NCBI GenBank assembly: GCA_002270295.1
Contig: NISF01000002.1
Span: 124,001 to 188,000 of the forward strand
Direction: 5' to 3'
DNA from: Enterobacter sp. 10-1
GTDB taxonomy: Bacteria > Pseudomonadota > Gammaproteobacteria > Enterobacterales > Enterobacteriaceae
Length of the DNA: 64,000 nucleotides
The translations under genes were made by a program, and so were the position numbers. Below, piece by piece: positions 49,573-64,000 of this stretch. Every line of letters starts with the position of its first letter. Positions within the stretch are counted from its first letter, which is position 1. The notes beneath the pieces are model-generated. The model did not search any database. It was not told the DNA's origin and worked only from the letters and a program-made list of their open reading frames with translations.

Positions 49573-51371
49573 TAGTAGACATCTCGCTGATAACGGCGCT
49601 CAACGCGCAGCTCACTTAAAAATTCGTCCGCCGCTTCGGCGTCCATCGCGCCGAATTCGGCAATCACTTCCAGCAGCGTCTGTTCAACGTCTTTCGCCAT
49701 GCGATTGGCGTCGCCGCAGACATAAATATGGGCGCCGTCATTAATCCAGCGCCACAGTTCGGCCCCCTGCTCGCGCAGCTTGTCCTGAACATAGACTTTT
49801 TGTTGTTGATCGCGGGACCATGCCAGATCGATGCGGCTCAGTACGCCCTCTTTGACGTAGCTTTGCCATTCAACCTGGTAAAGGAAATCTTCCGTAAAGT
49901 GCGGGTTGCCGAAGAACAGCCAGTTCTTGCCCTCGGCGCCTTCCGCCGCGCGCTGCTGCATAAATGCGCGGAATGGCGCAATGCCGGTACCCGGGCCAAT
50001 CATGATGACCGGAGTCTGCGGGTTGGCAGGCAGGCGGAAGTTATCATTGTGTTCGATAAAGACGCGGACTTCGCCATCTTCTTCCACGCGATCGGCGAGG
50101 AAGCTGGAAGCGCCGCCGGCGCGCGCGCGGCCTTCGATCTCATAGCGCACAACGCCGACGGTCACGTGAACTTCGTTTTCCGTTTCCGCCTGCGACGAGG
50201 CGATCGAGTACAGGCGCGGCGTGAGCGGGCGCAGCAGATCAATCAGCGCCTGGGCATCCAGCTGCGCCGGAGAGAAGCGCACCATATCGACGATCGGCGT
50301 GGTGGCCGCATAGTGCTGCAGCTGCGCTTTATCGCCCACCAGCGGCAGCAGCGTTTCGCTGCGCGTTAGGGTGGCATAGTTCTCAACGATGTTGCCGGTG
50401 TTCACCGTCAGCTCAAAGTGCCACGTCAGCGCTTCGGCCAGCGGCAGCGTCTTACCGTCAACGCTAACCGGCTCATCGCCCTTCAGCCACAGCAGTTCAG
50501 CCAGCTCTTTAACCAGCGCCGGATCGTTCTGATACCAGACGCCCAGCGCATCGCCAGGCTGATAGCGCAGGCCGGAGTCACCCAGATCGATTTCCACGTG
50601 GCGCACGTCTTTTTCCGAATCGCGACCGGTAATTTTTTGGTTTACCGAAAGCGTCGCGGTCAGCGGCGCTTCTTTAGTATAGGGGCTGGTGTGAATGTCA
50701 TTGACCGCCCCGCTCGTCGCCAGCTGAGCCGGCGTCGCCGCCGGCGCACGGGCTTTCAGCACATCGACCACGCGGGTGCGCCATTCGGCCGCTGCGCCCT
50801 GATATTCGACGTCAGAATCAACGCGATCGAGCAGGCGCTCCCCGCCCAGCTCGGCCAGCCTGCTGTCGAAATCTTTACCTGACTGGCAGAAGAATTCGTA
50901 GGAGGTATCGCCAAGACCAAAGACCGCAAAAGCGGTGCCTTCGAGCTTCGGCGCTTTTTTCGAGAGCAGGAATTTATGCAGCGCGACGGCTTCTTCCGGC
51001 GGCTCACCTTCGCCCTGGGTTGAGGTCACGACGATCAGCAGTTTTTCGGAGGCTATTTGTTTGAATTTATAGTCGCCTGCGTTAACCAGCTTGACGTTCA
51101 GCTGCGCTGCCTGAAGGTCGTCACGCAGCGCTTCTGCCACGCGGCGGGCGTTGCCGGTTTGCGAGGCGGAAAGCAGCGTAATGCTCGGGACTTCCACAGC
51201 CTGAGCCGGAGCGGCAGCTGCCGCGCCGGAATGCTGATTCAGCACGCCCCAAAAATAGCCGGAAACCCAGGCAAGCTGGGTCGGTGTGAAGTCTGTCGTG
51301 GCCGCCTGCAGGCGCGCCATTTGCTCCGGGTTTAGCGGCAGCAAATTGGAAGGTGGGACCTGTGTCGTCAT
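49572..51371 (-). CDS. cysJ: sulfite reductase flavoprotein CysJ
   Basis: A 599-residue diflavin reductase that passes NADPH electrons to CysI. The FMN flavodoxin domain (about 60-210, [16 protein letters not shown]) is followed by an FAD domain (RLYSIAS near 390) and the NADPH domain ([16 protein letters not shown] near 460). Ends in VY as in E. coli. First gene of cysJIH. Confidence 0.97.
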
Positions 51372-51690
51372 GCGTCGTTATGTTCCAGTAAGCAAAGCTG
51401 TTATTCGCACCCTGTCAGCGCGGCAAAAACAGAAGAGAATGTAAGGTTAACGGCGCTGATAGTAACAATTAAATAAGGGATGGAAATAACAAATAACCAA
51501 ATGAACTAACCTGTTTTATCTATAGTTATTAACAACAAAATCGATTAAATAACCACATGAAATATAAAGAGATAATATGCATCAGCGCGGCGGATGCGGC
51601 GATTTTCCGCTCAGGGCCGTTTTAGTTAATGCTAAAAAATGTACTTTCCGGTACCCTACGGCGGTTTTTTTGTCTTATTGAGAGTAAAAG
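51372..51690. promoter_or_regulatory. divergent cysJ-queD region with near-identical 15-bp repeats
   Basis: The 319-bp spacer is AT-rich and holds AAATAACCAAATGAA at 51491-51505 and AAATAACCACATGAA at 51547-51561, which differ by one base and are 56 bp apart. This spacing and location, upstream of a cysJIH operon, fit paired CysB activator sites. queD is transcribed away from it on the plus strand. No coding region is visible. Confidence 0.45.
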
Positions 51691-52053
51691 ATGTCCACCA
51701 CCCTGTTTAAAGATTTTACCTTCGAGGCCGCCCACCGCCTGCCCCACGTACCGGAAGGTCATAAGTGCGGTCGCCTGCACGGTCACTCTTTTATGGTACG
51801 TCTGGAGATTACCGGCGAAGTCGATCCTCATACAGGTTGGATCATGGATTTTGCCGAGCTTAAAGCCGCCTTCAAGCCGACCTACGATCGCCTGGATCAC
51901 TACTATCTGAACGATATTCCAGGGCTGGAGAACCCGACCAGCGAAGTTCTGTCGCGCTGGATTTGGCAACAGATTAAACCCGTTGTGCCGCTGCTGAGCG
52001 CGGTGATGATTAAAGAGACCTGCACGGCGGGCTGCGTCTATCGCGGCGAGTGA
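51691..52053 (+). CDS. queD: 6-carboxy-5,6,7,8-tetrahydropterin synthase QueD
   Basis: A 120-residue PTPS-family zinc enzyme of queuosine/preQ0 synthesis. The zinc ligands H15, H30 and H32 and the catalytic C26 (CGRLHGHSF) are visible. ATG with GAGAGTAAAAG upstream. In this window its pathway partner QueE is at the far end. Confidence 0.96.
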
Positions 52054-52133
52054 TTAAAGCCTTTGTGTCGATGGTCAATATTCCTTAGATAACGCCATGC
52101 TAGCCTATGCGCTCTGGGTATCTGGGGCGCAAT

Positions 52134-53405
52134 ATGGCTGACGATTTTGATATTATTATCATCGGTGCAGGGATAGCCGGCACCGCTTGTGCTCTACGCT
52201 GCGCGCGGGCAGGACTTTCGGTCCTGCTGCTCGAACGCGGCGAACTTCCCGGCAGCAAAAACCTCTCCGGCGGGCGCCTGTACTGCCGAGCTCTCGCCGA
52301 ACTTCTCCCTCATTTTCAACAATCCGCCCCGCTTGAACGCCGTATCACCCAGGAAAACCTGACCCTGCTGACCGACGAGGGCGCCACAACCTATTCCAGC
52401 CTTCAGCCCGGCGGCGACTCCTGGAGTTTACTGCGCGCCCGTTTCGATCCGTGGCTGGTTAACCAGGCCGAAGGCGAAGGCGTACAGTGTATTACCGGCG
52501 CGACGGTCGCGGCGCTGCATCGCGAAAACGGCCGGGTTTGCGGGGTCATTTGCGATAACGAAACGCTGCGCTCCCGCTATGTCGTGCTGGCGGAAGGGGC
52601 CAACAGCGAGCTGGCGGAGCGTCACGGTTTACTCCCTCGCCCGTCCCCAACCGCCATGGCGCTGGGGATCAAAGCGGTGCTGGCGATGGAGCGCAAGACG
52701 CTGGAGGATCGTTTCCGCCTCGAGGGCAACGAGGGCTCCGCCATGATATTCACCGGCGGAGTCTGCGGCGATTTACCCGGCGGCGCGTTCCTTTATACCA
52801 ATCAGGATACGCTCTCATTCGGTATCGTATGTCCACTCTCCTCGCTGGGAAAAGGTGCGGTTCCTGCCTCCGGGCTGCTGGATCGTCTCAAATCGCATCC
52901 GGCCCTGCGTCCTCTGCTGCACGGTAGCGAAACGCTGGAATATGGCGCGCATCTGGTACCTGAAGGCGGCCTGCACGGCATGCCGGCGCAGTATGCCGGA
53001 GAAGGCTGGCTGCTGGTCGGCGACGCGCTGCGCACCTGCGTCAATACCGGCTTCACCGTGCGCGGGATGGACATGGCCTTAATCGGCGCCCAGGCGGCGG
53101 CGCAAACGTTAATCCGGGCCTGTCGGCACGGCGCGCCGCAAAATCTGTTTGCGCAATACCATCAGGAGATCGAGCGCAGCCTGCTGTGGGACGTGCTCCA
53201 GCGCTACCGGCACGTTCCCGCGCTGCTGCAGCGCCCCGGCTGGTATCGCCGCTGGCCCGCGCTGATGGACGATATCTCCCGCGAACTCTGGCAGCAGGGC
53301 GAAGGTCCGGTTCCGCCGCTGCGCCAGATAGTCTGGCGTCATCTTCGCCGTCACGGCCTGCGTCATCTGGCAGGCGATCTTGTCCGGAGCTTACGATGTC
53401 TGTAG
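52134..53405 (+). CDS. ygcN: YgcN, FixC-like FAD oxidoreductase (ETF-quinone oxidoreductase family)
   Basis: A 423-residue flavoprotein. The Rossmann FAD motif is GAGIAGTACALRCARAG (about residues 12-28), and the C-terminal GDA..CVNTGFTVRGMD is typical of FixC/ETF-QO proteins. The ATG at 52134 has GGGG upstream and gives the E. coli length, in preference to an earlier ATG at 52107. It overlaps ygcO by 10 bp. With the ferredoxin-like YgcO it likely moves electrons from the ETF pair YgcQR to quinone. Confidence 0.88.
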   Translation: MADDFDIIIIGAGIAGTACALRCARAGLSVLLLERGELPGSKNLSGGRLYCRALAELLPHFQQSAPLERRITQENLTLLTDEGATTYSSLQPGGDSWSLLRARFDPWLVNQAEGEGVQCITGATVAALHRENGRVCGVICDNETLRSRYVVLAEGANSELAERHGLLPRPSPTAMALGIKAVLAMERKTLEDRFRLEGNEGSAMIFTGGVCGDLPGGAFLYTNQDTLSFGIVCPLSSLGKGAVPASGLLDRLKSHPALRPLLHGSETLEYGAHLVPEGGLHGMPAQYAGEGWLLVGDALRTCVNTGFTVRGMDMALIGAQAAAQTLIRACRHGAPQNLFAQYHQEIERSLLWDVLQRYRHVPALLQRPGWYRRWPALMDDISRELWQQGEGPVPPLRQIVWRHLRRHGLRHLAGDLVRSLRCL

Positions 53406-53656
53406 CACGTAACGTCTGGCGTCCCGCCGACGCCCCGCATATTGTCCCGACGGCTACGCCCGACCGGGAAGTCGTCGAACTGCTTATTGCCTCCTGTCCC
53501 GCCGGGCTTTTTTCACGAACGGCGGACGGCGGCGTGCAGGTCGACTACCGGGGATGCCTGGAGTGCGGCACCTGCCGGCTATTATGCGATAAGGCAACGC
53601 TGAAAGAATGGCGCTATCCTGACTCTGGATTCGGTATTACGTTCCGTTTCGGCTAA
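53396..53656 (+). CDS. ygcO: YgcO, FixX-like ferredoxin
   Basis: An 86-residue iron-sulfur protein with CLECGTCRLLC (about residues 57-67), the FixX motif. The ATG at 53396 overlaps ygcN by 10 bp. The longer in-frame reading (from 53186) runs inside ygcN and is not used. Predicted partner of YgcN. Confidence 0.88.
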   Translation: MSVARNVWRPADAPHIVPTATPDREVVELLIASCPAGLFSRTADGGVQVDYRGCLECGTCRLLCDKATLKEWRYPDSGFGITFRFG

Positions 53657-53663
53657 TAAAACG

Positions 53664-53723
53664 ACTCGTTATAATTCAGGCTGCAGGAACGCTCGCGCCC
53701 CCGCAGCCTGAATGATGACGAGT
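53664..53723 (+). other. nested inverted-repeat hairpin between ygcO and ygcP
   Basis: The inner arms ATTCAGGCTGC (53674-53684) and GCAGCCTGAAT (53703-53713) and outer arms ACTCGT (53664-53669) and ACGAGT (53718-53723) are all perfect. No T-run follows, and it ends 19 bp before the ygcP ATG. It may be an attenuator, a Rho-type signal or an RNA-stability element at the start of ygcP. Confidence 0.6.
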
Positions 53724-53742
53724 AAAATACGAAGGACACACC

Positions 53743-54318
53743 ATGCCCCTGTTACACCTGCTACGACAAAACCCGGTCATTGCGGCCGTCAAAGATAACG
53801 CCAGCCTGCAGTTAGCCATCGATTCCGAGTGCCAGTTTATTTCCGTGCTGTACGGTAATATCTGCACCATCAGCAATATCGTGAAGAAAATCAAAAACGC
53901 CGGTAAATACGCGTTTATTCATGTCGACCTGCTGGAGGGGGCGTCGAATAAAGAGGTGGTGATTCAGTTTTTGAAGCTGGTTACCGAAGCGGACGGGATC
54001 ATCAGCACCAAAGCGCCGATGCTAAAAGCGGCCAGAGCGGAAGGCTTTTTCTGCATTCATCGCCTGTTTATCGTCGACTCTATTTCCTTTCACAATATCG
54101 ACAAGCAGGTGGCGCAGTCCAACCCGGACTGTATTGAAATCCTGCCGGGCTGCATGCCAAAAGTGCTGGGATGGGTGACGGAGAAGATTCACCAGCCGCT
54201 GATTGCCGGAGGCCTGGTCTGCGATGAAGAAGATGCGCGCAATGCGATGAAAGCCGGCGTTGCGGCCCTGTCGACCACCAACACCAGCGTCTGGAAATTA
54301 GCGAAGCAGCTTAATTAA
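53743..54318 (+). CDS. ygcP: YgcP, GlpP-type (glycerol-3-phosphate-responsive) antiterminator homologue
   Basis: A 191-residue TIM-barrel-like protein of the GlpP family. Conserved segments match Bacillus GlpP from memory: HVDLLEG (about 66), GIISTKAP (about 85), IHRLFIVDS (about 105), PDCIEILPG (about 126) and IAGGLV (about 152). In Bacillus, GlpP binds glycerol-3-phosphate and leader RNA of glpD to prevent termination. Here two leader terminators with antiterminator stems lie at the ygcW/yqcE spacer. It is convergent with ygcQ and overlaps it by 4 bp. The RNA target and the ligand are inferred. Confidence 0.8.
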   Translation: MPLLHLLRQNPVIAAVKDNASLQLAIDSECQFISVLYGNICTISNIVKKIKNAGKYAFIHVDLLEGASNKEVVIQFLKLVTEADGIISTKAPMLKAARAEGFFCIHRLFIVDSISFHNIDKQVAQSNPDCIEILPGCMPKVLGWVTEKIHQPLIAGGLVCDEEDARNAMKAGVAALSTTNTSVWKLAKQLN

Positions 54319-55169
54319 TCCTGCGTACAGGCTACCAGTGCTTCCAGTACCGGTAGCCAGTCATCCACGATGCCGACATCCGCCTGAGAAAATACCGGCG
54401 CGCTGGCGTCATGATTAATCGCCACGATAAATCGGCTCCCGCGCACTCCCGCCATCAGCGCCGCCGCCCCTGATGCGCCAGCCACAATGCAGATATCCGG
54501 AGCCAGCAGATGGCCGGAAATACCCACCAGGCGATCGGCATCATAGCCGCCATTCATCACTCGCGCTCGGCTGTAGCCCGCTTCCGCGCCCAGGTTTTGC
54601 GCAAGCGCCGCAATGCCTCCCGCATCGGCCTCTTCCCCGCCCTGCCCGACAACCAGCACCCGCTCCGCCGCCAGCAAAGGGTGCGCGCCCGCGCGCTCAA
54701 CGCGCTCAATCTCCGTCAGCCACTCGGGCTGCGCCGCCGGTACGATACGGCGCTCCGGCAGGCCGTCAGGAAAATCCCCGGACGCATTCCCTCCGGGCTG
54801 GCGCGCCAGGGAGAGGCACAGCGGCCGGGCGCTCACCTCCAGCGTGGCCGTGAGCGCATTGCCCCAATGAGACTTCGTTACCCGACCCTCCGGCGCATTC
54901 AGCGATAGCACCTGGCATACGCTGCCTCCCCGCAGGCGCCAGGCCAGCCGCGTGGCCAGCTCATCGGCCAGCGTTCCCGCCGGGAATAGCACCATATCCA
55001 CCGGCGTCTGTCGCCACTGAGCGACCAGCGCATCCAGAAGCTGCCCGGCAACCTCCGCCCCGGCGTTTGGCGTCCAGCGCTCGAGGTCCGCCGCAGCGAG
55101 ATCGTTTGCCGCCAGCCAGCCGCCCATCGCGGCGCGATCGCCGGCGGCCATAACTATCGCTATCTTCAT
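54315..55169 (-). CDS. ygcQ: YgcQ, electron-transfer flavoprotein alpha subunit-like
   Basis: A 284-residue ETF alpha-type subunit. The C-terminal half has the FAD-binding region (GISGHLLAPDICIVAGASG, about 220-240, and FIVAINHDASAPVFSQADVGIV). The ATG at 55169 overlaps the ygcR stop by 4 bp, in preference to an earlier in-frame start at 55202. Its partner is YgcR. Electrons would pass on to YgcNO. Confidence 0.87.
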   Translation of the reverse strand: MKIAIVMAAGDRAAMGGWLAANDLAAADLERWTPNAGAEVAGQLLDALVAQWRQTPVDMVLFPAGTLADELATRLAWRLRGGSVCQVLSLNAPEGRVTKSHWGNALTATLEVSARPLCLSLARQPGGNASGDFPDGLPERRIVPAAQPEWLTEIERVERAGAHPLLAAERVLVVGQGGEEADAGGIAALAQNLGAEAGYSRARVMNGGYDADRLVGISGHLLAPDICIVAGASGAAALMAGVRGSRFIVAINHDASAPVFSQADVGIVDDWLPVLEALVACTQD

Positions 55170-55948
55170 GGCCGCATCCTCTGGCATAAATAGTTCTCCC
55201 ACAGCGCCCCGGCTTTCTCCTGCGCCGTCGCGCCCTCAACGATAACGGCCGCGCGCCGCGGCGCCGGGCGCATCAGGCGCAGGCACTGAACGTCAGACGT
55301 CGCCTCAACGGTCGCCGCCTGGCGCACGATGTCCGCCTTTGCCGCCGCCAGGCGCTGGCGCATGCCGGGCACCGGGAGCGCCACTTCGCCGCACTGCCTG
55401 ACGGCAATCACCGCCGGTAGCCGCACCCGGCAGCGGCGGATGCCGGAGTCCGTTCGCTGCTCGACAACGGCGAAAGGCGGTTCGAGCGTAAAGCGTTCAA
55501 CCTGGCTGAAACAGGGCCAGTTGAGCATTTCCGCCAGCAGAAACGGCGTCTGGCCATTTTGCCCTTCGCTGCTCTGACAGCCGGTCACGATCAGCTCCCC
55601 GCCGTGGCTGCGCTGCCAGTCTGCGATCTGTCCGGCGATAAACGATGGCGCAAAGCGCAGATCCGCTGCCGTCTCCAGCAGCACCCGCTGGTCAAACCCC
55701 AGCGCGGCAAAGTAGCGCAGCCAGTGCAGCGCGCGCTCGTCGCCAATGCTTAATGCGCTCAAGGTCATCTCGCAGCCCGCATTGCGCTGGGCCAGCAGCA
55801 GCGCGGCGGCGGCCTGCTCATCGGCGCCGATAGCGCTGCGCAATAGTGCGACATCCGGCCCGCAGGTATCCAGCGCGGCGGCCTGCCAGTCCTTTTCCGC
55901 CAGCATGCCGGCGTCAGGCTCCGGCTTAAACGCCAACAGAATGTTCAT
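55166..55948 (-). CDS. ygcR: YgcR, electron-transfer flavoprotein beta subunit-like
   Basis: A 260-residue ETF beta-type subunit (E. coli YgcR 259). ETF beta features include ITGCQSSEGQNGQTPFLLAEML (about 122-140), which lies in the AMP/FAD-binding region. The end overlaps ygcS by 23 bp. Encoded with ygcQ, so an ETF heterodimer is expected. Confidence 0.86.
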   Translation of the reverse strand: MNILLAFKPEPDAGMLAEKDWQAAALDTCGPDVALLRSAIGADEQAAAALLLAQRNAGCEMTLSALSIGDERALHWLRYFAALGFDQRVLLETAADLRFAPSFIAGQIADWQRSHGGELIVTGCQSSEGQNGQTPFLLAEMLNWPCFSQVERFTLEPPFAVVEQRTDSGIRRCRVRLPAVIAVRQCGEVALPVPGMRQRLAAAKADIVRQAATVEATSDVQCLRLMRPAPRRAAVIVEGATAQEKAGALWENYLCQRMRP

Positions 55949-57275
55949 TCGCTCCTCCTTGTCTTTTGTCGCCGCTCCCGGCAGCAGCCAGCGGCAGCGC
56001 TTTGGTTTCCGGGGCCCACAGCCAGGTCACCACAAAGCCGATCAGCAGTACGCCGGCCAGTAGCAAAAGGGTGACCGTCATCCCCCACTGCGCCAGGGTC
56101 CAGGGCAGCAGGCCGGTGCCGATCGCGGCCCCAAGCCGGCTCATGGCGGTTGCGAAGCCAACGCCCAGCGAGCGGATATCCGTAGGAAAGCTTTCCGCCG
56201 GTAGGATCCCCACCAGATTGCTGACCGCCGAAATCGTGGTACTAAACAGGATAAAAAGCAGCAGCGTCCAGGGGCTGCCTGCCGGCAGGCAGGCCATGAC
56301 GAGTAGCGTCGTCGCCAGCAGCAGAAAGCTGCCGAGCAGGAAATGACGATGGGCCAGCAGATGGGTTAATACCAGGCCCAGCAGCGCGCCAACGATCAGC
56401 AGCGCATTCAGCAGCAGGCTGGCGGTCAGCGCATCTTCAAGACCGATGGTTTCGGCGATGGTGGGCAGCCAGGTATAGATAACGAACCACGGGATCACCA
56501 GGCAGACAAAGAAGATGCTGTTAAATGCCGTTCGCCGCCAGTAGCGCGGTGAAAACAGCGTTCTGATCCGTTTATTGGTTGCCGTCACCACCTCGTCGCC
56601 GAGCAGCACGTGCGGGCCAAAGCAGCGGCGCACCACCGCATGAGCCTCGGCGAAGCGGCCCTGGCGTAATAGCCAGCGCGGAGACTCCGGCGTCCCCCAG
56701 CGCAGCAGCGTGATTAACAGCGCCGGTAGCGCGGATGAGGCCAGCAGCCAGCGCCAGGCCTCCGGGTTTTCGCTAATAAAGTGGTGCCCGGCGAGGCTTG
56801 CCAGAACGTACCCGATGGTCCACACCACGCTAAACGCCCCGAGCAGGATGCCCCTATGCCGGCGCGGCGCAAATTCGGCGAGCAGCGTATGGCCTACGGA
56901 GTAATCCCCGCCCAGCCCAATGCCTATCAGGATCCGCAGGCCAATAAGCTGTTCAGGCGTGGTGGCAAAAAACTGCAGAAAAGAAGCGATGGTAATCAGG
57001 ACAAAGCTGAGGTTGAAAATCTTCTGGCGGCCAATGCGATCCGAGACCCACCCAAGGATCAGGCTACCAATAAACAGCCCAAGCAGCGCCTCCCCGCCGA
57101 TCATCCCGGCCATAAAAGGCGTCAGGTGCATGGCGGGGGTCAGCTGGATAATGGCGTAACCGATGACGCCGAGGACGTAGCCGTCAACCAGGTGCGCGCC
57201 GAAGGTTAGTGCAGCAATCCGGCAGTGAAAACCGTTAAGCGGCAGGTCGTCCATTCTCACCGGTGAAGCGTTCAT
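55926..57275 (-). CDS. ygcS: YgcS, MFS sugar/organic-acid transporter
   Basis: A 449-residue major facilitator with about 12 hydrophobic segments. The motif A-like WVSDRIGRQKIF and the RAFVRLL-type PESPRWLLRQGR after segment 6 place it in the sugar-transporter-like group. The ATG at 57275 has AGGGG upstream and gives the E. coli start MNxSPVRMDDLP; a longer reading to 57338 crosses into the ERIC-like repeat. The substrate is unknown. Confidence 0.87.
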   Translation of the reverse strand: MNASPVRMDDLPLNGFHCRIAALTFGAHLVDGYVLGVIGYAIIQLTPAMHLTPFMAGMIGGEALLGLFIGSLILGWVSDRIGRQKIFNLSFVLITIASFLQFFATTPEQLIGLRILIGIGLGGDYSVGHTLLAEFAPRRHRGILLGAFSVVWTIGYVLASLAGHHFISENPEAWRWLLASSALPALLITLLRWGTPESPRWLLRQGRFAEAHAVVRRCFGPHVLLGDEVVTATNKRIRTLFSPRYWRRTAFNSIFFVCLVIPWFVIYTWLPTIAETIGLEDALTASLLLNALLIVGALLGLVLTHLLAHRHFLLGSFLLLATTLLVMACLPAGSPWTLLLFILFSTTISAVSNLVGILPAESFPTDIRSLGVGFATAMSRLGAAIGTGLLPWTLAQWGMTVTLLLLAGVLLIGFVVTWLWAPETKALPLAAAGSGDKRQGGANEHSVGV

Positions 57276-57324
57276 TTCTACCCCTTCATGGTCCGGTAAA
57301 GGCGGCTTCCCGGTTGAGAAGCCG

Positions 57325-57524
57325 TATATACCCGTCATACTTCAAGCGGCTTGTGGGTTAGCTTTGTTACCCGGCTCATCCATGAGCCTCGCCCTTGAGG
57401 ACCGCCGCTACACGGCGTTCAAATCTGTTCCGGACAGATTTGTCGCTCACCCAACATAGCTATCTATGCTCCAGGGAATTGACTCTCTTGCCGCCTGCGA
57501 GCAACTCGAATTATTTGGGATATA
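57325..57524. repeat. ERIC-like element with a divergent, enlarged centre (about 200 bp)
   Basis: The two ends (CCCGTCATACTTCAAG at the left, GCAACTCGAATTATTTGGGA at the right) match the ends of the ERIC element near fhlA, in inverted orientation. The centre is different and about 70 bp longer. It contains stacked perfect hairpins: GGCTCAT/ATGAGCC (57373-57388), CGCCG/CGGCG (57402-57416) and CAAATCTGT/ACAGATTTG (57420-57442). It lies in the ygcU-ygcS spacer, transcribed as RNA with the ygc genes. Confidence 0.7.
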
Positions 57525-57528
57525 ACTA

Positions 57529-58983
57529 TTATTTTTCAATCGGGTAAATCGTTCCGGTATTCATAATTCCGTTTGGATCAAACTGCTTCTTCAGCCCTTC
57601 CAGCAGCGGCCACGCGCTGCCGTGCTCCAGCTTGCTCCAGTGAACGCGATGTTTACCGATTCCGTGGTGATGCACCATTGAGCCGCCGAGGCGAATGGTC
57701 TCTTCGCAAATGATCTTGTTGAGCGGGTTATGGTATTTATCAATTTCCTCTTCCGGCTTACAGTCCACCACGTTGTAGTCGTAGACGAAGTACATGTTGG
57801 TGCCGTTCATATAGCTATGAGAAGAGTGGCCGCCCAGCATGGTGATATCGTCCGCGTGCGGGAACTCGGTGCGGATGCGGTTGATTACGCTTTCATAGAT
57901 CTCATTGATGCAGCTCCAGCAGCCCGACACCTCCGTGGTAAAGCCCATATTGCCGGTTTTGAGGATCTGTACGCGTTCGGCAGCCACTTTTTCCGGGCCC
58001 CAGTTGAGGTGGTTGAACCAGGTTTCGATCAGCTTGCTGTCTACGCGCCGGCACTGCGGATAGCGCGCGACAACCTGCGCAATACCTTCCCCGGTTGCTT
58101 TCGCCATCAGCGGGTTGCCTTCGGCCATAAAGATCAGCACGCATTTGCCATCGGCAAAATGGGTAAAGTGCTGGGTGCCGTCCTCGGCATCGTACAGACG
58201 GGCGATCGACGGGCGATAACCTTCCACCATGACCTCGCGCAGGATGCTGAAGCCCACCTTCATATCGTCCAGCACGTAGCCGTAGAACAGGTTATTTTCC
58301 GGCGTGAACCTGAAGATTTTCACCGTCACTTCGGTGATATAGCACAGCGCACCTTCGTTGCCGATGATGATATGGCGAATATCTGGCCCGGCGGCGCGGC
58401 GCGGAACGTTTTTGATGCGGGTGACGGTGCCGTCGGGCAGCACGGCCTCAAGCCCGACTACCATATCTTCGATCGCCCCGTAGAGCGTGGAAAACTGGCC
58501 GATGCTGCGGGTTGCCACCAGGCCGCCCATCTGCGCCAGCGGCTTGGACTGCGGCGAGTGCCCGGTGGTGTAGCCTTTTGCCCGCAGCGCGTTTTCGAGA
58601 ATTTCCAGCGGCACGCCGCACTGCGCGGTTGCCTGCATATTTTCAATATCAATATTCAGGATTTGGTTCATCCCGGCACCGTCCAGCACCACAGAATTTT
58701 CCACGACGGTTTCGAGGCCACCTTCGGTCGCCGAGGCGCCGGTACGCGGTACGCCGTTGATCTTATGCTGGTTCATAAAGGACAGTACGTCAGAAACCTG
58801 TTCGGTCGAGCCTAGCTTAACGACCGCGGCGGGCAGCGGCAGCGTAAAGACGCCGTGGATGTCGGCATATTTACGAAAGCGGTCAATACTGTTGCGCTTT
58901 AAAACGGTTTCATCGGTGATCACGCGATCGGAACCGACGATTTCTTTTAACTGGTCAACAATCGCTTCACGGGATAAAGACAT
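57529..58983 (-). CDS. ygcU: YgcU, FAD-linked oxidase with alkyl-DHAP-synthase-like motif
   Basis: A 484-residue flavoenzyme. The N-terminal FAD-binding domain (about 50-230) contains the P-loop-like PRTGASATEGG, and a C-terminal FAD-oxidase domain follows. The sequence HHHGIGKHR (about residues 446-454) resembles the histidine motif of alkyl-dihydroxyacetone-phosphate synthases. It starts at the ATG of MSLSREA (58983), giving the E. coli length, and not at the longer start at 59025. Probable substrate: a hydroxy acid or glycerol-linked compound; not proven. Electrons may go to the YgcQR ETF. Confidence 0.85.
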   Translation of the reverse strand: MSLSREAIVDQLKEIVGSDRVITDETVLKRNSIDRFRKYADIHGVFTLPLPAAVVKLGSTEQVSDVLSFMNQHKINGVPRTGASATEGGLETVVENSVVLDGAGMNQILNIDIENMQATAQCGVPLEILENALRAKGYTTGHSPQSKPLAQMGGLVATRSIGQFSTLYGAIEDMVVGLEAVLPDGTVTRIKNVPRRAAGPDIRHIIIGNEGALCYITEVTVKIFRFTPENNLFYGYVLDDMKVGFSILREVMVEGYRPSIARLYDAEDGTQHFTHFADGKCVLIFMAEGNPLMAKATGEGIAQVVARYPQCRRVDSKLIETWFNHLNWGPEKVAAERVQILKTGNMGFTTEVSGCWSCINEIYESVINRIRTEFPHADDITMLGGHSSHSYMNGTNMYFVYDYNVVDCKPEEEIDKYHNPLNKIICEETIRLGGSMVHHHGIGKHRVHWSKLEHGSAWPLLEGLKKQFDPNGIMNTGTIYPIEK

Positions 58984-59176
58984 AGTAATACCTTCCTGAT
59001 AATTAATTCGGAACAGACACTTCATCCTTCAAGCTGCCTCTTTATTAACGGCTTTTATAAACCCCAATAACATTGCGTTCTATATTACCGGAGATTTATT
59101 TCCTTACGGCCTCGACGCATCCTGAATGATATTTTGTGACATAATTAATAAAAACACAGAAACCACCGGTTAAGAA

Positions 59177-59962
59177 TTAACGCACCAGATAACCGCCGTC
59201 GACAACCAACAGATGGCCGTTAACATAATTGGATGCCTGACTGGCTAAGAATACGGCTGCGCCCATTAGGTCCTGAGTATCGCCCCAGCGGTTTGCCGGA
59301 ATATGGTCCAACACGCGCTGATTGGTTTCGGGATTGCTGCGGGTCGCCAGCGTAATATCGGTTGCATAATATCCCGGGGCGATGCCGTTGACCTGGATAT
59401 TATACTGACCAAGCTCGTCGCAATATGCCTTAGTAAAACCGGCAAGCGCGTGCTTAGTTGCAGAATAAGCCGGTGACCACTGGCCGCCAAGGTAAGAAAA
59501 TAATGAGCAGATATTAATAATTTTGCCGCTGTGTTGCGGGATCATAATTTTTGCCGCTTCATGGCTGAGCTCGAAGGGTGCCGTCAGGTTAACATCGATC
59601 ATCGGGTCCCAATCCGCACGCCCGAAGTCCAGCACCTTATTCAGTTTACAAATTCCGGCATTGTTGACGAGGATATCGACCGTGCCAAAGCGTTCACAGC
59701 AGGCGGCGATGATCTGCTGCGGCGCGCCTTTGGCGGTAATATCCACCTGCATAAACTCAACTTCAACACCCTGTTTTTCAATAATTTCTTTCGTCTCTCC
59801 GTTATCCTTGACGACGCTTGGGATAAACAGATTCGCTCCCGCTTTAGCCAGCGCCATAGCAAAGGCCTGACCCAGCCCGCTATTGCCGCCGGTCACAATT
59901 GCCGTTTTACCTTTCAGAGAGAAGAAATCCATTGAGAACGCGTTAAGAGATTCGATTGACAT
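59177..59962 (-). CDS. ygcW: YgcW, short-chain dehydrogenase/reductase
   Basis: A 261-residue SDR. The NAD(P) motif is TGGNSGLGQA (about residues 24-33), NNAG is near 100, and the catalytic Ser, Tyr and Lys are in SLFSYLGGQWSPAYSATKHA (Tyr-x3-Lys). The ATG at 59962 gives the E. coli length; an in-frame start four codons earlier is less likely. It is the first gene of the minus-strand ygcW-ygcU-ygcS-ygcR-ygcQ set and has a leader terminator 25 bp upstream. Confidence 0.92.
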   Translation of the reverse strand: MSIESLNAFSMDFFSLKGKTAIVTGGNSGLGQAFAMALAKAGANLFIPSVVKDNGETKEIIEKQGVEVEFMQVDITAKGAPQQIIAACCERFGTVDILVNNAGICKLNKVLDFGRADWDPMIDVNLTAPFELSHEAAKIMIPQHSGKIINICSLFSYLGGQWSPAYSATKHALAGFTKAYCDELGQYNIQVNGIAPGYYATDITLATRSNPETNQRVLDHIPANRWGDTQDLMGAAVFLASQASNYVNGHLLVVDGGYLVR

Positions 59963-59986
59963 AGTTGGCTCCAAATTCCTTTAGGC

Positions 59987-60034
59987 AAAAAAAAAGAAAG
60001 GTAACTTCCCCCACGAGAGGGAAGTTACCTTTCT
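59987..60034 (-). terminator. leader intrinsic terminator of the ygcW operon
   Basis: On the minus strand, a perfect 16-bp stem (arms 60019-60034 and 59995-60010, loop of 8) is followed by nine T residues. It lies 25 bp before the ygcW ATG, inside the transcribed leader, so it must be controlled for the operon to be expressed. It cannot form at the same time as the upstream stem at 60024-60050. Confidence 0.9.
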
Positions 60035-60050
60035 CATTGTCTCTGGTAAC
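60024..60050 (-). promoter_or_regulatory. antiterminator stem-loop in the ygcW leader
   Basis: Minus-strand GTTACC (60050-60045) can pair with GGTAAC (60029-60024) around the 15-base loop AGAGACAATGAGAAA. It uses the 5' arm of the terminator, so the two structures exclude each other. The same design, with different but still paired arms, lies upstream of yqcE. Confidence 0.75.
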
Positions 60051-60052
60051 TG

Positions 60053-60102
60053 AGCTAATTTTTTAGCACAGCGCCCGAGCACCTAATGTGATCGCAATCA
60101 CA
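60053..60102 (-). promoter_or_regulatory. CRP-dependent promoter of the ygcW operon
   Basis: The CRP site TGTGATCGCAATCACA (60087-60102) matches the consensus TGTGA-N6-TCACA perfectly. Minus-strand TAAAAA (60065-60060) would serve as the -10, placing the start near 60053, with CRP centred at -41.5. Transcription would begin just before the antiterminator stem. Confidence 0.75.
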
Positions 60103-60143
60103 GATAAATATTTCATTCATAAATTATGCGCAAAGCTATGAAG

Positions 60144-60193
60144 CGTGATTATTCTCACACTAAAACCCACGCTGACATGTTATTCCTAATCGC
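60144..60193 (+). promoter_or_regulatory. CRP-dependent promoter of the yqcE operon
   Basis: CGTGATTATTCTCACA (60144-60159) matches the CRP consensus at 9 of 10 half-site bases. TGtTATTCC (60178-60186) looks like an extended -10. A start near 60193 would place CRP at -41.5, and the antiterminator stem begins two bases later. Confidence 0.7.
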
Positions 60194-60194
60194 A

Positions 60195-60220
60195 ATTACT
60201 AGAGACCAGAGAAAAGTAAT
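60195..60220 (+). promoter_or_regulatory. antiterminator stem-loop in the yqcE leader
   Basis: ATTACT (60195-60200) pairs with AGTAAT (60215-60220) around the 14-base loop AGAGACCAGAGAAA. The 3' arm belongs to the 5' arm of the terminator that follows, so pairing prevents termination. The loop is nearly identical to the one in the ygcW leader while the stem pairs differ, which is a covariation signal. Confidence 0.75.
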
Positions 60221-60255
60221 CCACCTGCAAAGGCGGTTTACTTTTCTCTTTTTTT
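60208..60255 (+). terminator. leader intrinsic terminator of the yqcE operon
   Basis: AGAGAAAAGTAA...CCT (60208-60226) pairs with AGG...TTACTTTTCTCT (60231-60249), 17 of 19 positions, with a GCAA tetraloop and seven T residues at the end. It lies 25 bp before the yqcE ATG. Confidence 0.9.
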
Positions 60256-60280
60256 CGTCTATTTAAAATGAGATCACGAT

Positions 60281-61579
60281 ATGCAACAGAATTCATATCG
60301 CCGTTGGATAACCCTTGCCATTATTAGCTTTAGCGGCGGCGTCAGCTTTGACCTTGCCTATTTACGCTATATCTATCAAATCCCAATGGCAAAATTCATG
60401 GGATTTAGCAATACCGAAATAGGCTTAATTATGAGCACCTTCGGTATTACTGCTATTATTCTTTACGCCCCCAGCGGGGTTATTGCTGATAAATTTTCCC
60501 ATCGTAAAATGATTACTTCAGCGATGATCGTTACCGGCCTGCTCGGTTTATTAATGGCGACCTATCCACCGCTGTGGGCCATGCTCTGTATTCAGGTCGC
60601 CTTTGCCATCACCACCATTCTGATGCTGTGGTCCGTTTCAATTAAAGCCGCCTCGCTGCTCGGCGATCATAGCGAGCAGGGGAAAATCATGGGCTGGATG
60701 GAGGGGCTGCGCGGCGTTGGCGTTATGTCGCTGGCGGTATTTACCATGTGGGCATTTTCCCGCTTCGCCCCTGACGATAGCAACAGCCTGAAGGTCGTTA
60801 TCCTGATTTACAGCGTGGTTTATATCCTGCTGGGGATATTGTGCTGGTTCTTCGTCAGCGACGCGCCTCAGCGCGGCGGCGCGGCGCAGGAAGATAAAAA
60901 GGCGTTTCAGCTGAGCGATATTCTCGCCGTCCTGCGCATCAGCACGACCTGGTACTGCAGCATGGTCATTTTTGGCGTCTTTACCATCTACGCCATCCTC
61001 AGCTACTCCACCAACTATCTGACGGAGATGTACGGTATGTCGCTGGTGGCCGCGAGCTATATGGGGATTGTCATCAACAAAATCTTCCGCGCGATTTGCG
61101 GCCCGCTGGGCGGCATTATTACCACCTACAGCAGAGTGAAATCCCCGACTCGCGTCATTCAGCTGCTGTCGATCGTGGGGGTTCTGGCGCTTATAGCGCT
61201 GTTAGCCACCAATTCAAACCCGCAGTCCGTTGCGATGGGGATCGGCCTGATCCTGCTGCTGGGCTTCACCTGCTACGCTTCGCGCGGGCTCTATTGGGCC
61301 TGCCCCGGCGAAGCGCGGACGCCGGGCTACATCATGGGAACAACCGTCGGTATCTGCTCGGTTATTGGCTTCCTGCCTGACGTTTTTGTCTATCCGATCG
61401 TCGGCCACTGGCAGGACACCCTCCCTGCCGCAGACGCTTACCACAATATGTGGCTAATGGGCCTGGCCGCGCTGTGCATGGTGATCCTCTTTACCTTTTT
61501 GCTGTTTCGTAAAATACGCCGCACCGACGCCGCGACAGAACGCGAGGCATCGCTGGCCGCAGAAACTGCTGGCGAGTGA
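60281..61579 (+). CDS. yqcE: YqcE, MFS transporter
   Basis: A 432-residue major facilitator (E. coli YqcE 425) with about 12 hydrophobic segments. It keeps DKFSHRKMI after segment 2, the motif A loop. It is followed by ygcE after 26 bp. The leader has the terminator and antiterminator described above. The substrate is unknown; pairing with a kinase suggests import of a phosphorylatable sugar or polyol-like compound. Confidence 0.88.
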   Translation: MQQNSYRRWITLAIISFSGGVSFDLAYLRYIYQIPMAKFMGFSNTEIGLIMSTFGITAIILYAPSGVIADKFSHRKMITSAMIVTGLLGLLMATYPPLWAMLCIQVAFAITTILMLWSVSIKAASLLGDHSEQGKIMGWMEGLRGVGVMSLAVFTMWAFSRFAPDDSNSLKVVILIYSVVYILLGILCWFFVSDAPQRGGAAQEDKKAFQLSDILAVLRISTTWYCSMVIFGVFTIYAILSYSTNYLTEMYGMSLVAASYMGIVINKIFRAICGPLGGIITTYSRVKSPTRVIQLLSIVGVLALIALLATNSNPQSVAMGIGLILLLGFTCYASRGLYWACPGEARTPGYIMGTTVGICSVIGFLPDVFVYPIVGHWQDTLPAADAYHNMWLMGLAALCMVILFTFLLFRKIRRTDAATEREASLAAETAGE

Positions 61580-61605
61580 TGGTGAAAATTTAAAGGAGAA
61601 TAATA

Positions 61606-63084
61606 ATGTCGAAGAAATACATCATTGGAATTGATGGCGGGAGCCAGAGCACCAAGGTCGTGATGTACGACCTGCAGGGAAACGTGGTCTGCGAGGGAAA
61701 AGGCCTGCTGCAGCCAATGCACACGCCGGACGCCGATACGGCGGAGCACCCTGATGATGATTTGTGGACCTCTCTCTGCGCCGCCGGACGGGATCTGATG
61801 GGCCGGTTCGCGGGCCAGAAAGAAGATATTGTCGGCATCGGTCTGGGCTCCATCCGCTGCTGCCGCGCGCTCCTTAAAGCCGACGGTACGCCCGCAGAAC
61901 CTCTCATTAGCTGGCAGGATGCCCGCGTCACCCGGCCTTATGAACACACCAATCCCGACGTGGCCTGGGTCACCTCATTTTCCGGCTATCTGTCGCACCG
62001 CTTAACCGGCGAATTTAAGGACAATATCGCCAACTACTTTGGTCAGTGGCCGGTGGATTACAAAACCTGGGGGTGGAGCGACAATGATGAGGTCGTTAAG
62101 CAGTTTAATATTCCGCGCCGGATGCTATTCGACGTGCAGATGCCCGGCACGATTCTGGGTCATCTCACCGGCCAGGCGGCTCTCGCGACCGGCTTCCCGG
62201 CAGGATTGCCCGTTATCTGCACCACCAGCGATAAGCCGGTTGAGGCGCTCGGCGCAGGGCTACTGGATGATGAAACGGCGGTTATCTCATTAGGCACCTA
62301 CATCGCCCTGATGATGAACGGCAAAGCGCTGCCGAAAAATCCCGTCGCCTACTGGCCGATTATGTCCTCCATTCCGGAGACGCTGCTGTACGAGGGGTAC
62401 GGTATTCGCAAGGGAATGTGGACGGTTAGCTGGCTGCGGGACATGCTGGGCGAATCCTTAATTCAGGACGCCGGGGCCCAGGGCCTGTCGCCGGAAGATC
62501 TGTTAAATAAAAAGGCCGCAACGGTGCCACCGGGCTGCAACGGTTTAATGACCGTACTGGACTGGTTAACGAATCCCTGGGAGCCCTATAAGCGCGGGAT
62601 AATGATCGGTTTTGATTCCGGCATGGACTACGCGTGGATTTATCGTTCCATTCTGGAGAGCGTTGCGCTGACGTTGAAAAATAACTACGACAATATGTGC
62701 AATGAAATGAATCGATTCGCTAAACATATCATCATTACCGGCGGGGGTTCGAACAGCGACCTCTTTATGCAGATCTTCGCCGATGTATTTAACCTGCCGG
62801 CCAGACGCAACGCTATTAACGGCTGTGCAAGCCTCGGGGCGGCAATCAACGCCGCGGTTGGATTGGGTTTGTATCCCTCCTACGCGGCAGCGGTTGCAAA
62901 TATGGTGCGGGTAAAAGATACCTTTATGCCAGTAGAGAAGAATGCCAACAGGTATGAGGCATTAAATAAGGGGATCTTCAGGGAGTTAACCACGTATACG
63001 GATACGATTTTGAAAAAGTCGTATGCGGTCACCCACGGTAGCCTGGAAAACGTTGACGCGATTCAAAGCTGGTCGAACGCGTAG
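61606..63084 (+). CDS. ygcE: YgcE, FGGY-family carbohydrate kinase
   Basis: A 492-residue kinase, the E. coli length. The N-terminal phosphate-binding motif is GIDGGSQSTKV (about residues 7-17), and the C-terminal TGGGSNSDLFMQIFADV is the FGGY ATP-binding region (about 382-398). The family includes glycerol, xylulose and gluconate kinases; the substrate here is unknown. It is expected to make the phosphorylated metabolite that a GlpP-like regulator could sense. Confidence 0.9.
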   Translation: MSKKYIIGIDGGSQSTKVVMYDLQGNVVCEGKGLLQPMHTPDADTAEHPDDDLWTSLCAAGRDLMGRFAGQKEDIVGIGLGSIRCCRALLKADGTPAEPLISWQDARVTRPYEHTNPDVAWVTSFSGYLSHRLTGEFKDNIANYFGQWPVDYKTWGWSDNDEVVKQFNIPRRMLFDVQMPGTILGHLTGQAALATGFPAGLPVICTTSDKPVEALGAGLLDDETAVISLGTYIALMMNGKALPKNPVAYWPIMSSIPETLLYEGYGIRKGMWTVSWLRDMLGESLIQDAGAQGLSPEDLLNKKAATVPPGCNGLMTVLDWLTNPWEPYKRGIMIGFDSGMDYAWIYRSILESVALTLKNNYDNMCNEMNRFAKHIIITGGGSNSDLFMQIFADVFNLPARRNAINGCASLGAAINAAVGLGLYPSYAAAVANMVRVKDTFMPVEKNANRYEALNKGIFRELTTYTDTILKKSYAVTHGSLENVDAIQSWSNA

Positions 63085-63090
63085 CGGACG

Positions 63091-63117
63091 CGCCGGGTAG
63101 AACGCATCTACCCGGCG
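63091..63117. terminator. terminator between convergent ygcE and queE
   Basis: CGCCGGGTAGA (63091-63101) pairs perfectly over 11 bp with TCTACCCGGCG (63107-63117), with a 5-base loop. The T-run is weak (ATTTAT). It lies between convergent genes. Confidence 0.65.
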
Positions 63118-63122
63118 ATTTA

Positions 63123-63794
63123 TCAGGCAATATTCAGATACTTATGCGTTTGCATCGATAGCCGCCAGTTGCGGGCGATGCAGGTCTCAATACACAGACG
63201 CGTCGCATCCTCTTTTTGGCTGATAGGCTGCAGAGCAATAATCCGCGGCTTGTCGTCGGTGAGCGTTTCCAGCAGTTCATCCAGCGCTTCGATATCGCGC
63301 ACGCGCCCCACCGGATGCTTGATTTCATCCGCCCGCAGCAGCGCCTGCGACAGCACGTCGTAACCGCCGCGCATGTTGACCTTAGGGGAAACCGTCACCC
63401 AGGCCCGCGGGCTGCAGCGCACTTCATGGGTGCCGCTGGTTTCAATCTGGCAGCTGAAGCCGTTATGCTCAAGCAGGGTCGTCAGCGGGGTAAGATCGTG
63501 GATGCAGGGCTCGCCGCCGGTGATCACCACGTGACGAGCGGTCCACCCCTGACGGCCAATAATCGCCAGCAGATCTTCGCCGCTGGCCGGGCCCCATTTA
63601 TCGCTCTCTTTGGTTTTCGCCAGAATGCTGAACAGCGACACTTCCCGATCGGCAAGTTTGTCCCAGGTATGTTTGGTATCGCACCAGGCGCAACCAACCG
63701 GGCATCCCTGCAGGCGAATAAAAATGGCGGGCACGCCGGTAAAGTAACCCTCGCCTTGCAAGGTCTGGAACATCTCGTTAATCGGGTACTGCAT
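63123..63794 (-). CDS. queE: 7-carboxy-7-deazaguanine synthase QueE
   Basis: A 223-residue radical-SAM enzyme of queuosine synthesis that acts after QueD. The cluster cysteines are C31, C35 and C38 in GCPVGCAWCD. The ATG at 63794 gives the E. coli start MQYPINEMF; another ATG two codons upstream is less likely. In E. coli, eno lies beyond it; here the window ends first. Confidence 0.96.
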   Translation of the reverse strand: MQYPINEMFQTLQGEGYFTGVPAIFIRLQGCPVGCAWCDTKHTWDKLADREVSLFSILAKTKESDKWGPASGEDLLAIIGRQGWTARHVVITGGEPCIHDLTPLTTLLEHNGFSCQIETSGTHEVRCSPRAWVTVSPKVNMRGGYDVLSQALLRADEIKHPVGRVRDIEALDELLETLTDDKPRIIALQPISQKEDATRLCIETCIARNWRLSMQTHKYLNIA

Positions 63795-63800
63795 AATCAT

Positions 63801-64000
63801 CTCTGTTTAGGTTCTAAACGATCATTATCGCAGATTTGCGCGCCCAGGTCTTGTCCTCAGCTGCGATGGCGCGTGCCTCGCCCCCCATACCCTAAGCAAC
63901 GCCCTATCCGCCATCTGACGATAAAACTGCGGCTATTATTCATCTTTACGCTGCCAGATTTATGGATTATCCGCACCGTATTAATAATTCATTTTATTTT
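63801..64000. other. terminal non-coding stretch upstream of queE
   Basis: The last 200 bases are AT-rich at the end and show no open reading frame, repeat or clear promoter that I can support. It is presumably the queE promoter region and the edge of the next gene's upstream region. Confidence 0.4.

Follow-up and report, generated by a model that had tools for sequence, protein, structure and literature searches.

Conserved twin leaders between ygcW and yqcE resemble antitermination switches of the GlpP type, most likely read by YgcP

In enteric bacteria, ygcW and yqcE head two divergent operons, and each is preceded by a strong intrinsic terminator lying ahead of its start codon. How could transcription pass these terminators, and what would decide when it does? 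We analysed the spacer between the two genes in a window of 64,000 nt (the whole stretch of DNA under analysis) from Enterobacter sp. 10-1 (GCA_002270295.1, contig NISF01000002.1, positions 124,001–188,000, forward strand), to which the coordinates in Table 1 refer. The 318-bp spacer holds two outward-facing leaders, one for ygcW on the minus strand and one for yqcE on the plus strand. From the RNA 5' end, each leader consists of a 6-nt arm, a purine loop, a complementary arm and a terminator, and the 5' arm of the terminator starts within the loop and includes the second hairpin arm. A preliminary description of this DNA had proposed that the hairpins, GTTACC/GGTAAC (60050–60024) and ATTACT/AGTAAT (60195–60220), share their 3' arms with the terminators, making the two structures mutually exclusive, and this is how they are laid out. 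The strong terminators that it placed about 25 nt before the first ATG were likewise located, the distance from U-tract to start codon being 24 nt for ygcW (ATG at 59962) and 25 nt for yqcE (ATG at 60281, with an out-of-frame ATG ahead of it at 60268).

Table 1 Features of the ygcP–ygcE region in the window
Feature	Position	Strand	Remark
ygcP, GlpP-family protein, proposed antiterminator for both leaders	53743..54318	+	PF04309 (G3P_antiterm), Pfam 2.4e-62
ygcS (MFS transporter) with electron-transfer flavoprotein subunits ygcR and ygcQ, presumed remainder of minus operon	54315..57338	-	operon extent predicted
ygcU, FAD-linked oxidase-like	57529..58983	-	
ygcW, SDR oxidoreductase, first gene of minus operon	59177..59962	-	
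Intrinsic terminator, ygcW leader; 19-bp stem and U-tract	59987..60035	-	z -6.7
3' arm GGTAAC, common to antiterminator and terminator, ygcW leader	60024..60029	-	
Loop with tandem motif AGAGACAATGAGAAA (GAGA-N4-GAGA), proposed YgcP site, ygcW leader	60030..60044	-	
5' arm GTTACC, ygcW-leader antiterminator hairpin	60045..60050	-	pairing counted on 81 relatives
CRP-like site TGTGATCGCAATCACA, centred 44.5 nt upstream of 5' arm, ygcW leader	60087..60102		
CRP-like site CGTGATTATTCTCACA, centred 43.5 nt upstream of 5' arm, yqcE leader	60144..60159		
5' arm ATTACT, yqcE-leader antiterminator hairpin	60195..60200	+	pairing counted on 81 relatives
Loop of yqcE leader containing AGAGACCAGAGAAA (GAGA-N3-GAGA), putative YgcP site	60201..60214	+	
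Intrinsic terminator, yqcE leader	60208..60255	+	z -5.6; missed by simple terminator scan
3' arm AGTAAT, common to terminator, yqcE leader	60215..60220	+	
yqcE, MFS transporter, first gene of plus operon	60281..61579	+	
ygcE, FGGY-family kinase, proposed maker of inducing phosphate ester	61606..63084	+	inducer role predicted

The terminators folded at -34.3 kcal/mol (ygcW) and about -22.5 kcal/mol (yqcE), and 0 of 200 shuffles were as stable. Taken alone in this single sequence, the 6-bp hairpins were not significant (-4.7 and -1.4 kcal/mol, with 19 and 61 of 200 shuffles as stable). When the hairpin was forced, the leaders reached -16.2 and -6.5 kcal/mol, far weaker than the free leaders (-34.3 and, in this calculation, -22.8 kcal/mol), which suggests that the default state is terminated and that a binder would be required to stabilize the hairpin. 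A search of window positions 50000–64000 with 4,227 Rfam models returned no match up to E = 1. Since single-sequence energy is insufficient here, it is the comparison across relatives that makes the 6-bp hairpins convincing.

For this comparison, which had been named beforehand as the check on the proposed structure, we aligned 81 distinct leader elements, from loci gathered via YgcP (41 loci), the spacer itself, E. coli and a Bacillaceae family; of 5,426 complete E. coli genomes, 4,998 contain 80% or more of the spacer. To be kept, an element had to contain AGAG(A/C)(A/C/T), GAGAAA and seven T's; its arms were placed at whichever of five offsets fitted best. The hairpin was paired in 98.1% of 486 cells and the terminator in 92.2%. 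Both sides had changed in 51 cells against a shuffled mean of 17.7, and the covariation score was 0.360 against 0.226 in shuffles; for each measure 0 of 500 shuffles were as high, and slid controls scored at most 0.155. The both-side changes fell in pairs 1, 4 and 6, that is, in three of six pairs. Two of the five covariation measures, both cruder, failed to beat shuffles: pairs changed on both sides numbered 3 against 2.1 in shuffles, of which 36 of 500 were as high, and further pair types numbered 6 against 7.1. The six columns common to both structures paired with the upstream arm in 477 of 486 cells and with the terminator arm in 425 of 486, so pairing with the upstream arm persists in places where the terminator is mismatched. 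Mismatches comprised C·A in 4 of 81 elements (the second leaders of L033, L035, L036 and L068) and A·G in L015, and the 5' arm of one row, the minus leader of L070, is out of register, which lowers the pairing count.

Mapped on a tree of YgcP from 50 loci, the pair types require no fewer than three distinct double changes, namely U-A to C-G in pair 6 of the ygcW leader within the Enterobacteriaceae, A-U to G-C in pair 4 of the ygcW leader in L025, and G-C to A-U in pair 1 of the second leader. The covarying arms and near-constant loop first noted in the two leaders of this genome thus recur among their relatives as a conserved loop with compensatory stem changes, and we conclude that the leaders are a real, conserved pair of antitermination-type switches.

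Among the 81 relatives, the elements consist of a 6-bp stem enclosing a purine-rich loop of 14–18 nt with the consensus GAG(A/C)-N4 (or N3)-GAGAAA. A looser pattern gave 112 distinct elements, two of which were removed, both in classical GlpP loci (L165 and L166); the other 110 pair at five or more of six positions (105 at all six and 5 at five). The first motif in these 110 is GAGA in 90, GAGC in 19 and GAGT in one, and it is separated from GAGAAA by four nucleotides in 84 elements, three in 25 and five in one. This loop constancy arises partly by selection, because the collecting pattern demands GAG and GAGAAA. A fairer figure comes from the 50 loci having both ygcP and ygcW, where the element stands before ygcW in 48 and the remaining two have lost the spacer; the pattern used there overlooked second leaders plainly present in five loci (L023, L032, L034, L043 and L176).

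In two Limnobaculum-like genomes (L178, 9440–9620; L180, 8955–9140) the spacer has shrunk to roughly 130 bp and holds a single common terminator; both promoters, the CRP sites and the hairpins are gone though ygcP is kept, and in L180, ygcW matches as two tblastn segments. Each of L031, L037 and L067 has one terminator sequence in both its leaders, as inverted copies, yet that sequence varies from genome to genome, a pattern like that left by gene conversion.

The window contains two separate CRP-like sites, one per leader. With a CRP-like site defined as at least 8 of 10 consensus positions, such a site stood upstream of the 5' arm, its centre 42.5–45.5 nt away, in all 103 enteric elements and in none of the seven from the Bacillaceae family (103 of 110 overall). 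In class II CRP promoters the site is centred at -41.5, and if the leaders have promoters of this class, the observed spacing would put +1 about 1–4 nt before the stem. Because a CRP site is fixed before all 103 enteric leaders collected by pattern, the circuit looks like 'CRP AND YgcP'. The available portions of three sources also place CRP here: a genomic SELEX list of divergent gene pairs (PMC3105977), a table of CRP binding in ETEC (PMC4287617) and a site prediction (PMC1794230). The preliminary description had both RNAs starting just before the stem, and while the CRP geometry fits that placement, a list of RpoD promoters does not: the hexamers given for ygcW and yqcE in the accessible part of that list (PMC3946193), once located in E. 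coli, put the starts about 40 nt (ygcW) and about 125 nt (yqcE) before the hairpins, a rough estimate in which one spacing is off by a base. The hairpins would still be in the RNA from these starts, and the disagreement with the CRP-derived positions slightly lowers our confidence in the main reading.

If a protein opens these leaders, a candidate is encoded in the same cluster. The gene ygcP lies about 6 kb from the leaders, so that a PF04309-family regulator is encoded alongside its presumed target genes, and YgcP is most likely the reader, in line with the earlier suggestion that one RNA-binding protein could recognize both loops. Two PF04309 chains with solved structures came up, 3kts and 1vkf, both entered under the name of glycerol uptake operon antiterminator (-related) protein, and E. 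coli YgcP is annotated by homology. Among 22 loci, several of which are truncated by contig or locus ends, the complete ones always have YgcW, YgcU, YgcE and YgcP, while YqcE, YgcS, YgcR, YgcQ and YgcN vary. In L174 the order is changed to leader-ygcW-ygcU-ygcN and leader-ygcE-transporter-ygcP, with ygcE now first behind its leader, which indicates that the leader stays with the operon start despite a different first gene. The E. coli BW25113 record NZ_CP193896.1 has yqcE interrupted by IS1 (L002, 9322–11376).

To follow the leader and the protein across genomes, we searched 295 genomes of the source organism's family with a leader model, R1, and with PF04309 (both at E <= 0.001), and obtained R1 matches in 37 and PF04309 matches in 46. 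Every one of the 36 genomes with PF04309 at 200 bits or more carries an R1 match, against one match in the other 259, and the 10 genomes with only lower-scoring PF04309 have none. G265 (L179), which has an R1 match and has kept ygcW, lacks PF04309, and its leader is degenerate, with the first GAGA, the second arm and the U-tract altered. In two of the 36 genomes (G155 and G243) only a residual terminator is left after deletion of the spacer. R1 was trained partly on leaders from genomes later searched, so the positive half of this co-occurrence is not independent; the absence elsewhere is, and among 273 other genomes of the source class there was a single weak R1 match (E 8.1e-4). Co-occurrence with the leader is also partly plain linkage, because the ygcW-U-E-P genes travel together.

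By pattern search, the other, distant PF04309 paralogs of some enterics (L167–L173) have no tandem GAGA leader near them; those scanned adjoin glycerophosphate-oxidase-like, YgcU-like or Fe-alcohol-dehydrogenase genes, or a DeoC-type aldolase with an FGGY kinase. One contig titled Chryseobacterium (L024) holds an enteric ygcP cluster with a YgcP 89% identical, and is probably contamination or a mislabelled assembly. In the visible part of a 2006 expression table, the E. coli orthologue of ygcP is given a ratio of 83.3 between ethanol-challenged and unchallenged cultures (PMC1599756).

The association extends to a second phylum. In Thalassobacillus (L039), a YgcP 58% identical is divergent from a leader of like type, which stands ahead of homologues of ygcW, ygcE and ygcU. 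Across 44 genomes of the Bacillaceae family to which Thalassobacillus belongs, R1 gave seven matches at E <= 1e-7 (G295, G303, G317, G320, G322, G327 and G331), each 175–240 bp from a second PF04309 gene, of the YgcP clade, in divergent orientation; G295 and G317 were used to build R1, and the other five matches are independent. Weaker R1 matches in this family (3e-6 to 1e-3) resemble ordinary terminators, several scoring on both strands, and were not counted.

A tree of 45 PF04309 proteins placed the 18 enteric and seven Bacillaceae-family proteins encoded beside this leader on one side, together with L074, which has no recognized leader. A branch of 2.78 (support 100/100) separates this side from 16 GlpP proteins encoded next to classical leaders (paralogs L167–L170, for which tblastn gave no match, are absent from the tree). 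Because YgcP forms a separate clade outside the classical GlpP group, we file it as a variant of the family and not as GlpP itself. YgcP (25 rows) and GlpP (16 rows) have 25 conserved positions in common, including K55, H60, D62, R107 and G157. In the Lachnoclostridium member of the YgcP clade (L041, 2990–3070; L074), a gene with DAO and BFD domains lies downstream, and its leader has GAGAATTGGAGT ahead of a terminator; this GAGA-ATTG-GAGT element is possibly a diverged GAGA-N4-GAGA.

The loop motif recurs in classical GlpP leaders. Around PF04309 genes in 61 Bacilli loci, GAGA-N4-GAGA followed by a T-run was found 21 times against 1.05 expected from dinucleotide shuffles, with no such excess when N4 was replaced by spacers of 2, 3 or 5–10 nt (0–3 each against 0.65–1.4 expected). 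The genes behind these leaders resemble glpF, glpD, glpK and glpT, as named by eye from their first residues, and genes of these types are known GlpP targets in B. subtilis according to the available text of PMC9604022. We aligned a classical set of 17 loci with GTTA upstream, reduced to 16 by removal of L157 as a near copy of L153; L146 and L151, which have the GAGA pair and lack GTTA, were left out. The GAGA and GTTA columns of this alignment are invariant by selection, and the count of 21 against 1.05 demands only the GAGA pair and the T-run. All 16 classical leaders open with an AAGTTAA-like stretch (alignment columns 1–8), and YgcP leaders open with (A/G)TTAC. An enclosing stem was present in 0 of the 16 classical leaders (1.35 expected by chance), where GTTA has no pairing partner. 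Since GTTA occurs there unpaired, the arm of the YgcP leader may be read as sequence besides, or instead of, pairing. The RNA element is thus common to both kinds of leader, and the YgcP leader looks like the element recognized by GlpP, here fixed within an explicit antiterminator hairpin. In the accessible portions of the GlpP literature we found no recognition motif; the original leader-binding work lies outside that scope, so the GAGA repeat may already be described.

Taking these observations together, we consider it highly probable, on comparative sequence evidence, that both leaders are twin protein-dependent antitermination switches controlled by YgcP. Each promoter, with its own CRP site, would give rise to an RNA that probably starts a few bases before the leader hairpin. 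When active YgcP is absent, the very stable terminator would form and the RNA would stop 24–25 nt before the start codon. Inducer-loaded YgcP would bind the tandem GAGA loop and pin the weak hairpin, withholding its 3' arm from the terminator, and polymerase could then read into ygcW-U-S-R-Q and yqcE-ygcE. If GlpP and its ligand glycerol-3-phosphate are a guide, the inducer is probably a phosphate ester made by the kinase YgcE; the parallel with the glp genes, in which a transporter, an FGGY kinase, a flavin oxidase and a PF04309 regulator go together, suggests the kinase product for this role.

Other mechanisms could produce leaders of this outline. The preliminary description had likened them to RAT-type antitermination, which would call for a protein of the BglG/LicT family. 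The overall logic is indeed alike, with a hairpin overlapping the terminator soon after the start site, but no BglG-type RNA-binding or PRD domain was present in the nine cluster proteins scanned, Rfam gave no match, and it is YgcP that co-occurs with the leader. RAT hairpins are about 30 nt long with internal loops, an outline from which the 6-bp stem and 14–18-nt loop found here may differ. For lack of such a protein in the cluster we reject the resemblance as kinship, and we regard a BglG/LicT-family switch as barely credible. The system appears instead to be GlpP-type, because YgcP is in the cluster, tracks the leader in Enterobacterales and in the Bacillaceae family, and the loop motif is common to classical GlpP leaders. 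Alternative folds in short 5' leaders are also typical of control by riboswitches, small RNAs or leader peptides, any of which might act here without YgcP. For a ligand pocket, a purine-rich loop of this size on a 6-bp stem is small, no ORF of at least 80 amino acids (the lower limit of the ORF list) lies inside the leaders, and the association with YgcP would be left unexplained, making such mechanisms highly improbable. The ygcW entries in the accessible part of a riboswitch screen (PMC4448311) are candidates 3–4 kb away from ygcW.

A plainer account would have the hairpin as incidental, its 5' arm a duplication of the terminator's 3' arm, and the strong terminator as an insulator or attenuator working without any antiterminator protein. 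That the terminator is by far the stronger fold, that the 5' arm is a near copy of its 3' arm, and that a 6-bp stem is not significant in one sequence all suit this account. It is nevertheless very unlikely given the compensatory change across relatives, the like loop in two phyla and the association with YgcP, and a constitutive terminator right behind CRP-activated promoters would merely silence the operons. YgcP could also bind the loops with the opposite effect, strengthening termination, or could mainly alter RNA stability; B. subtilis GlpP also stabilizes glpD mRNA, according to the available part of PMC7430163. However, a conserved hairpin that excludes the terminator fits an activator, and the precedent of GlpP in the accessible text of PMC9604022 is antitermination, so we consider this very unlikely.

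In the available text of the E. coli literature, ygcP appears in tables or as a passenger gene and no target is named, and no antitermination control is named for ygcP, ygcW, yqcE/ygcE or other ygc genes in the portions consulted, mostly of open papers. The leaders would offer YgcP, a regulator known mainly by family, two precise candidate RNA targets. They would also supply a recognition motif into which classical GlpP leaders fit as well and a testable AND logic with CRP, and the metabolite that opens the switch would point to the substrate of the ygcW-ygcE cluster, which has been little studied. On a broader proposal our judgement is evenly balanced: all PF04309 proteins may read one RNA code, GAGA-N4-GAGA, of which the YgcP branch, in enterics and some Bacillaceae, would have evolved a hairpin-locked version sensing a YgcE-made phosphate ester other than glycerol-3-phosphate. 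E. coli K-12 would then contain an unrecognized, CRP-gated and metabolite-sensing antitermination circuit for a catabolic pathway.

Among known systems, the closest is GlpP of Bacillus subtilis (glpD, glpFK and glpT), which is of the same protein family, PF04309, as YgcP. In the available portions of PMC9604022 and PMC7430163, GlpP binds the glp leaders with glycerol-3-phosphate and prevents termination, and the former describes a promoter, a short leader, a protein-binding site and a terminator in the 5' UTR, an arrangement that the YgcP leaders match, with an intrinsic terminator upstream of the first gene in both. A tandem GAGA-N4-GAGA with GTTA near the RNA 5' end is common to the YgcP leaders and the leaders of glpF-, glpD-, glpK- and glpT-like genes in the Bacilli loci compared. 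YgcP differs from GlpP in its separate clade, in an element closed by a covarying stem that the classical leaders lack, in predicted targets (ygcW, yqcE and ygcE as against the glp genes) and, in enterics, in the added CRP site. RAT systems read by BglG, LicT or SacY share a protein-stabilized hairpin overlapping the terminator's 5' arm, and differ in protein family, none of the nine cluster proteins being of the PRD or CAT kind, and apparently in the RNA element. HutP, as described in the accessible part of PMC7430163, is similarly a ligand-activated protein reading short, repeated purine-rich motifs, the NAG repeats, near a terminator, and it differs from the YgcP system in protein, motif and spacing.
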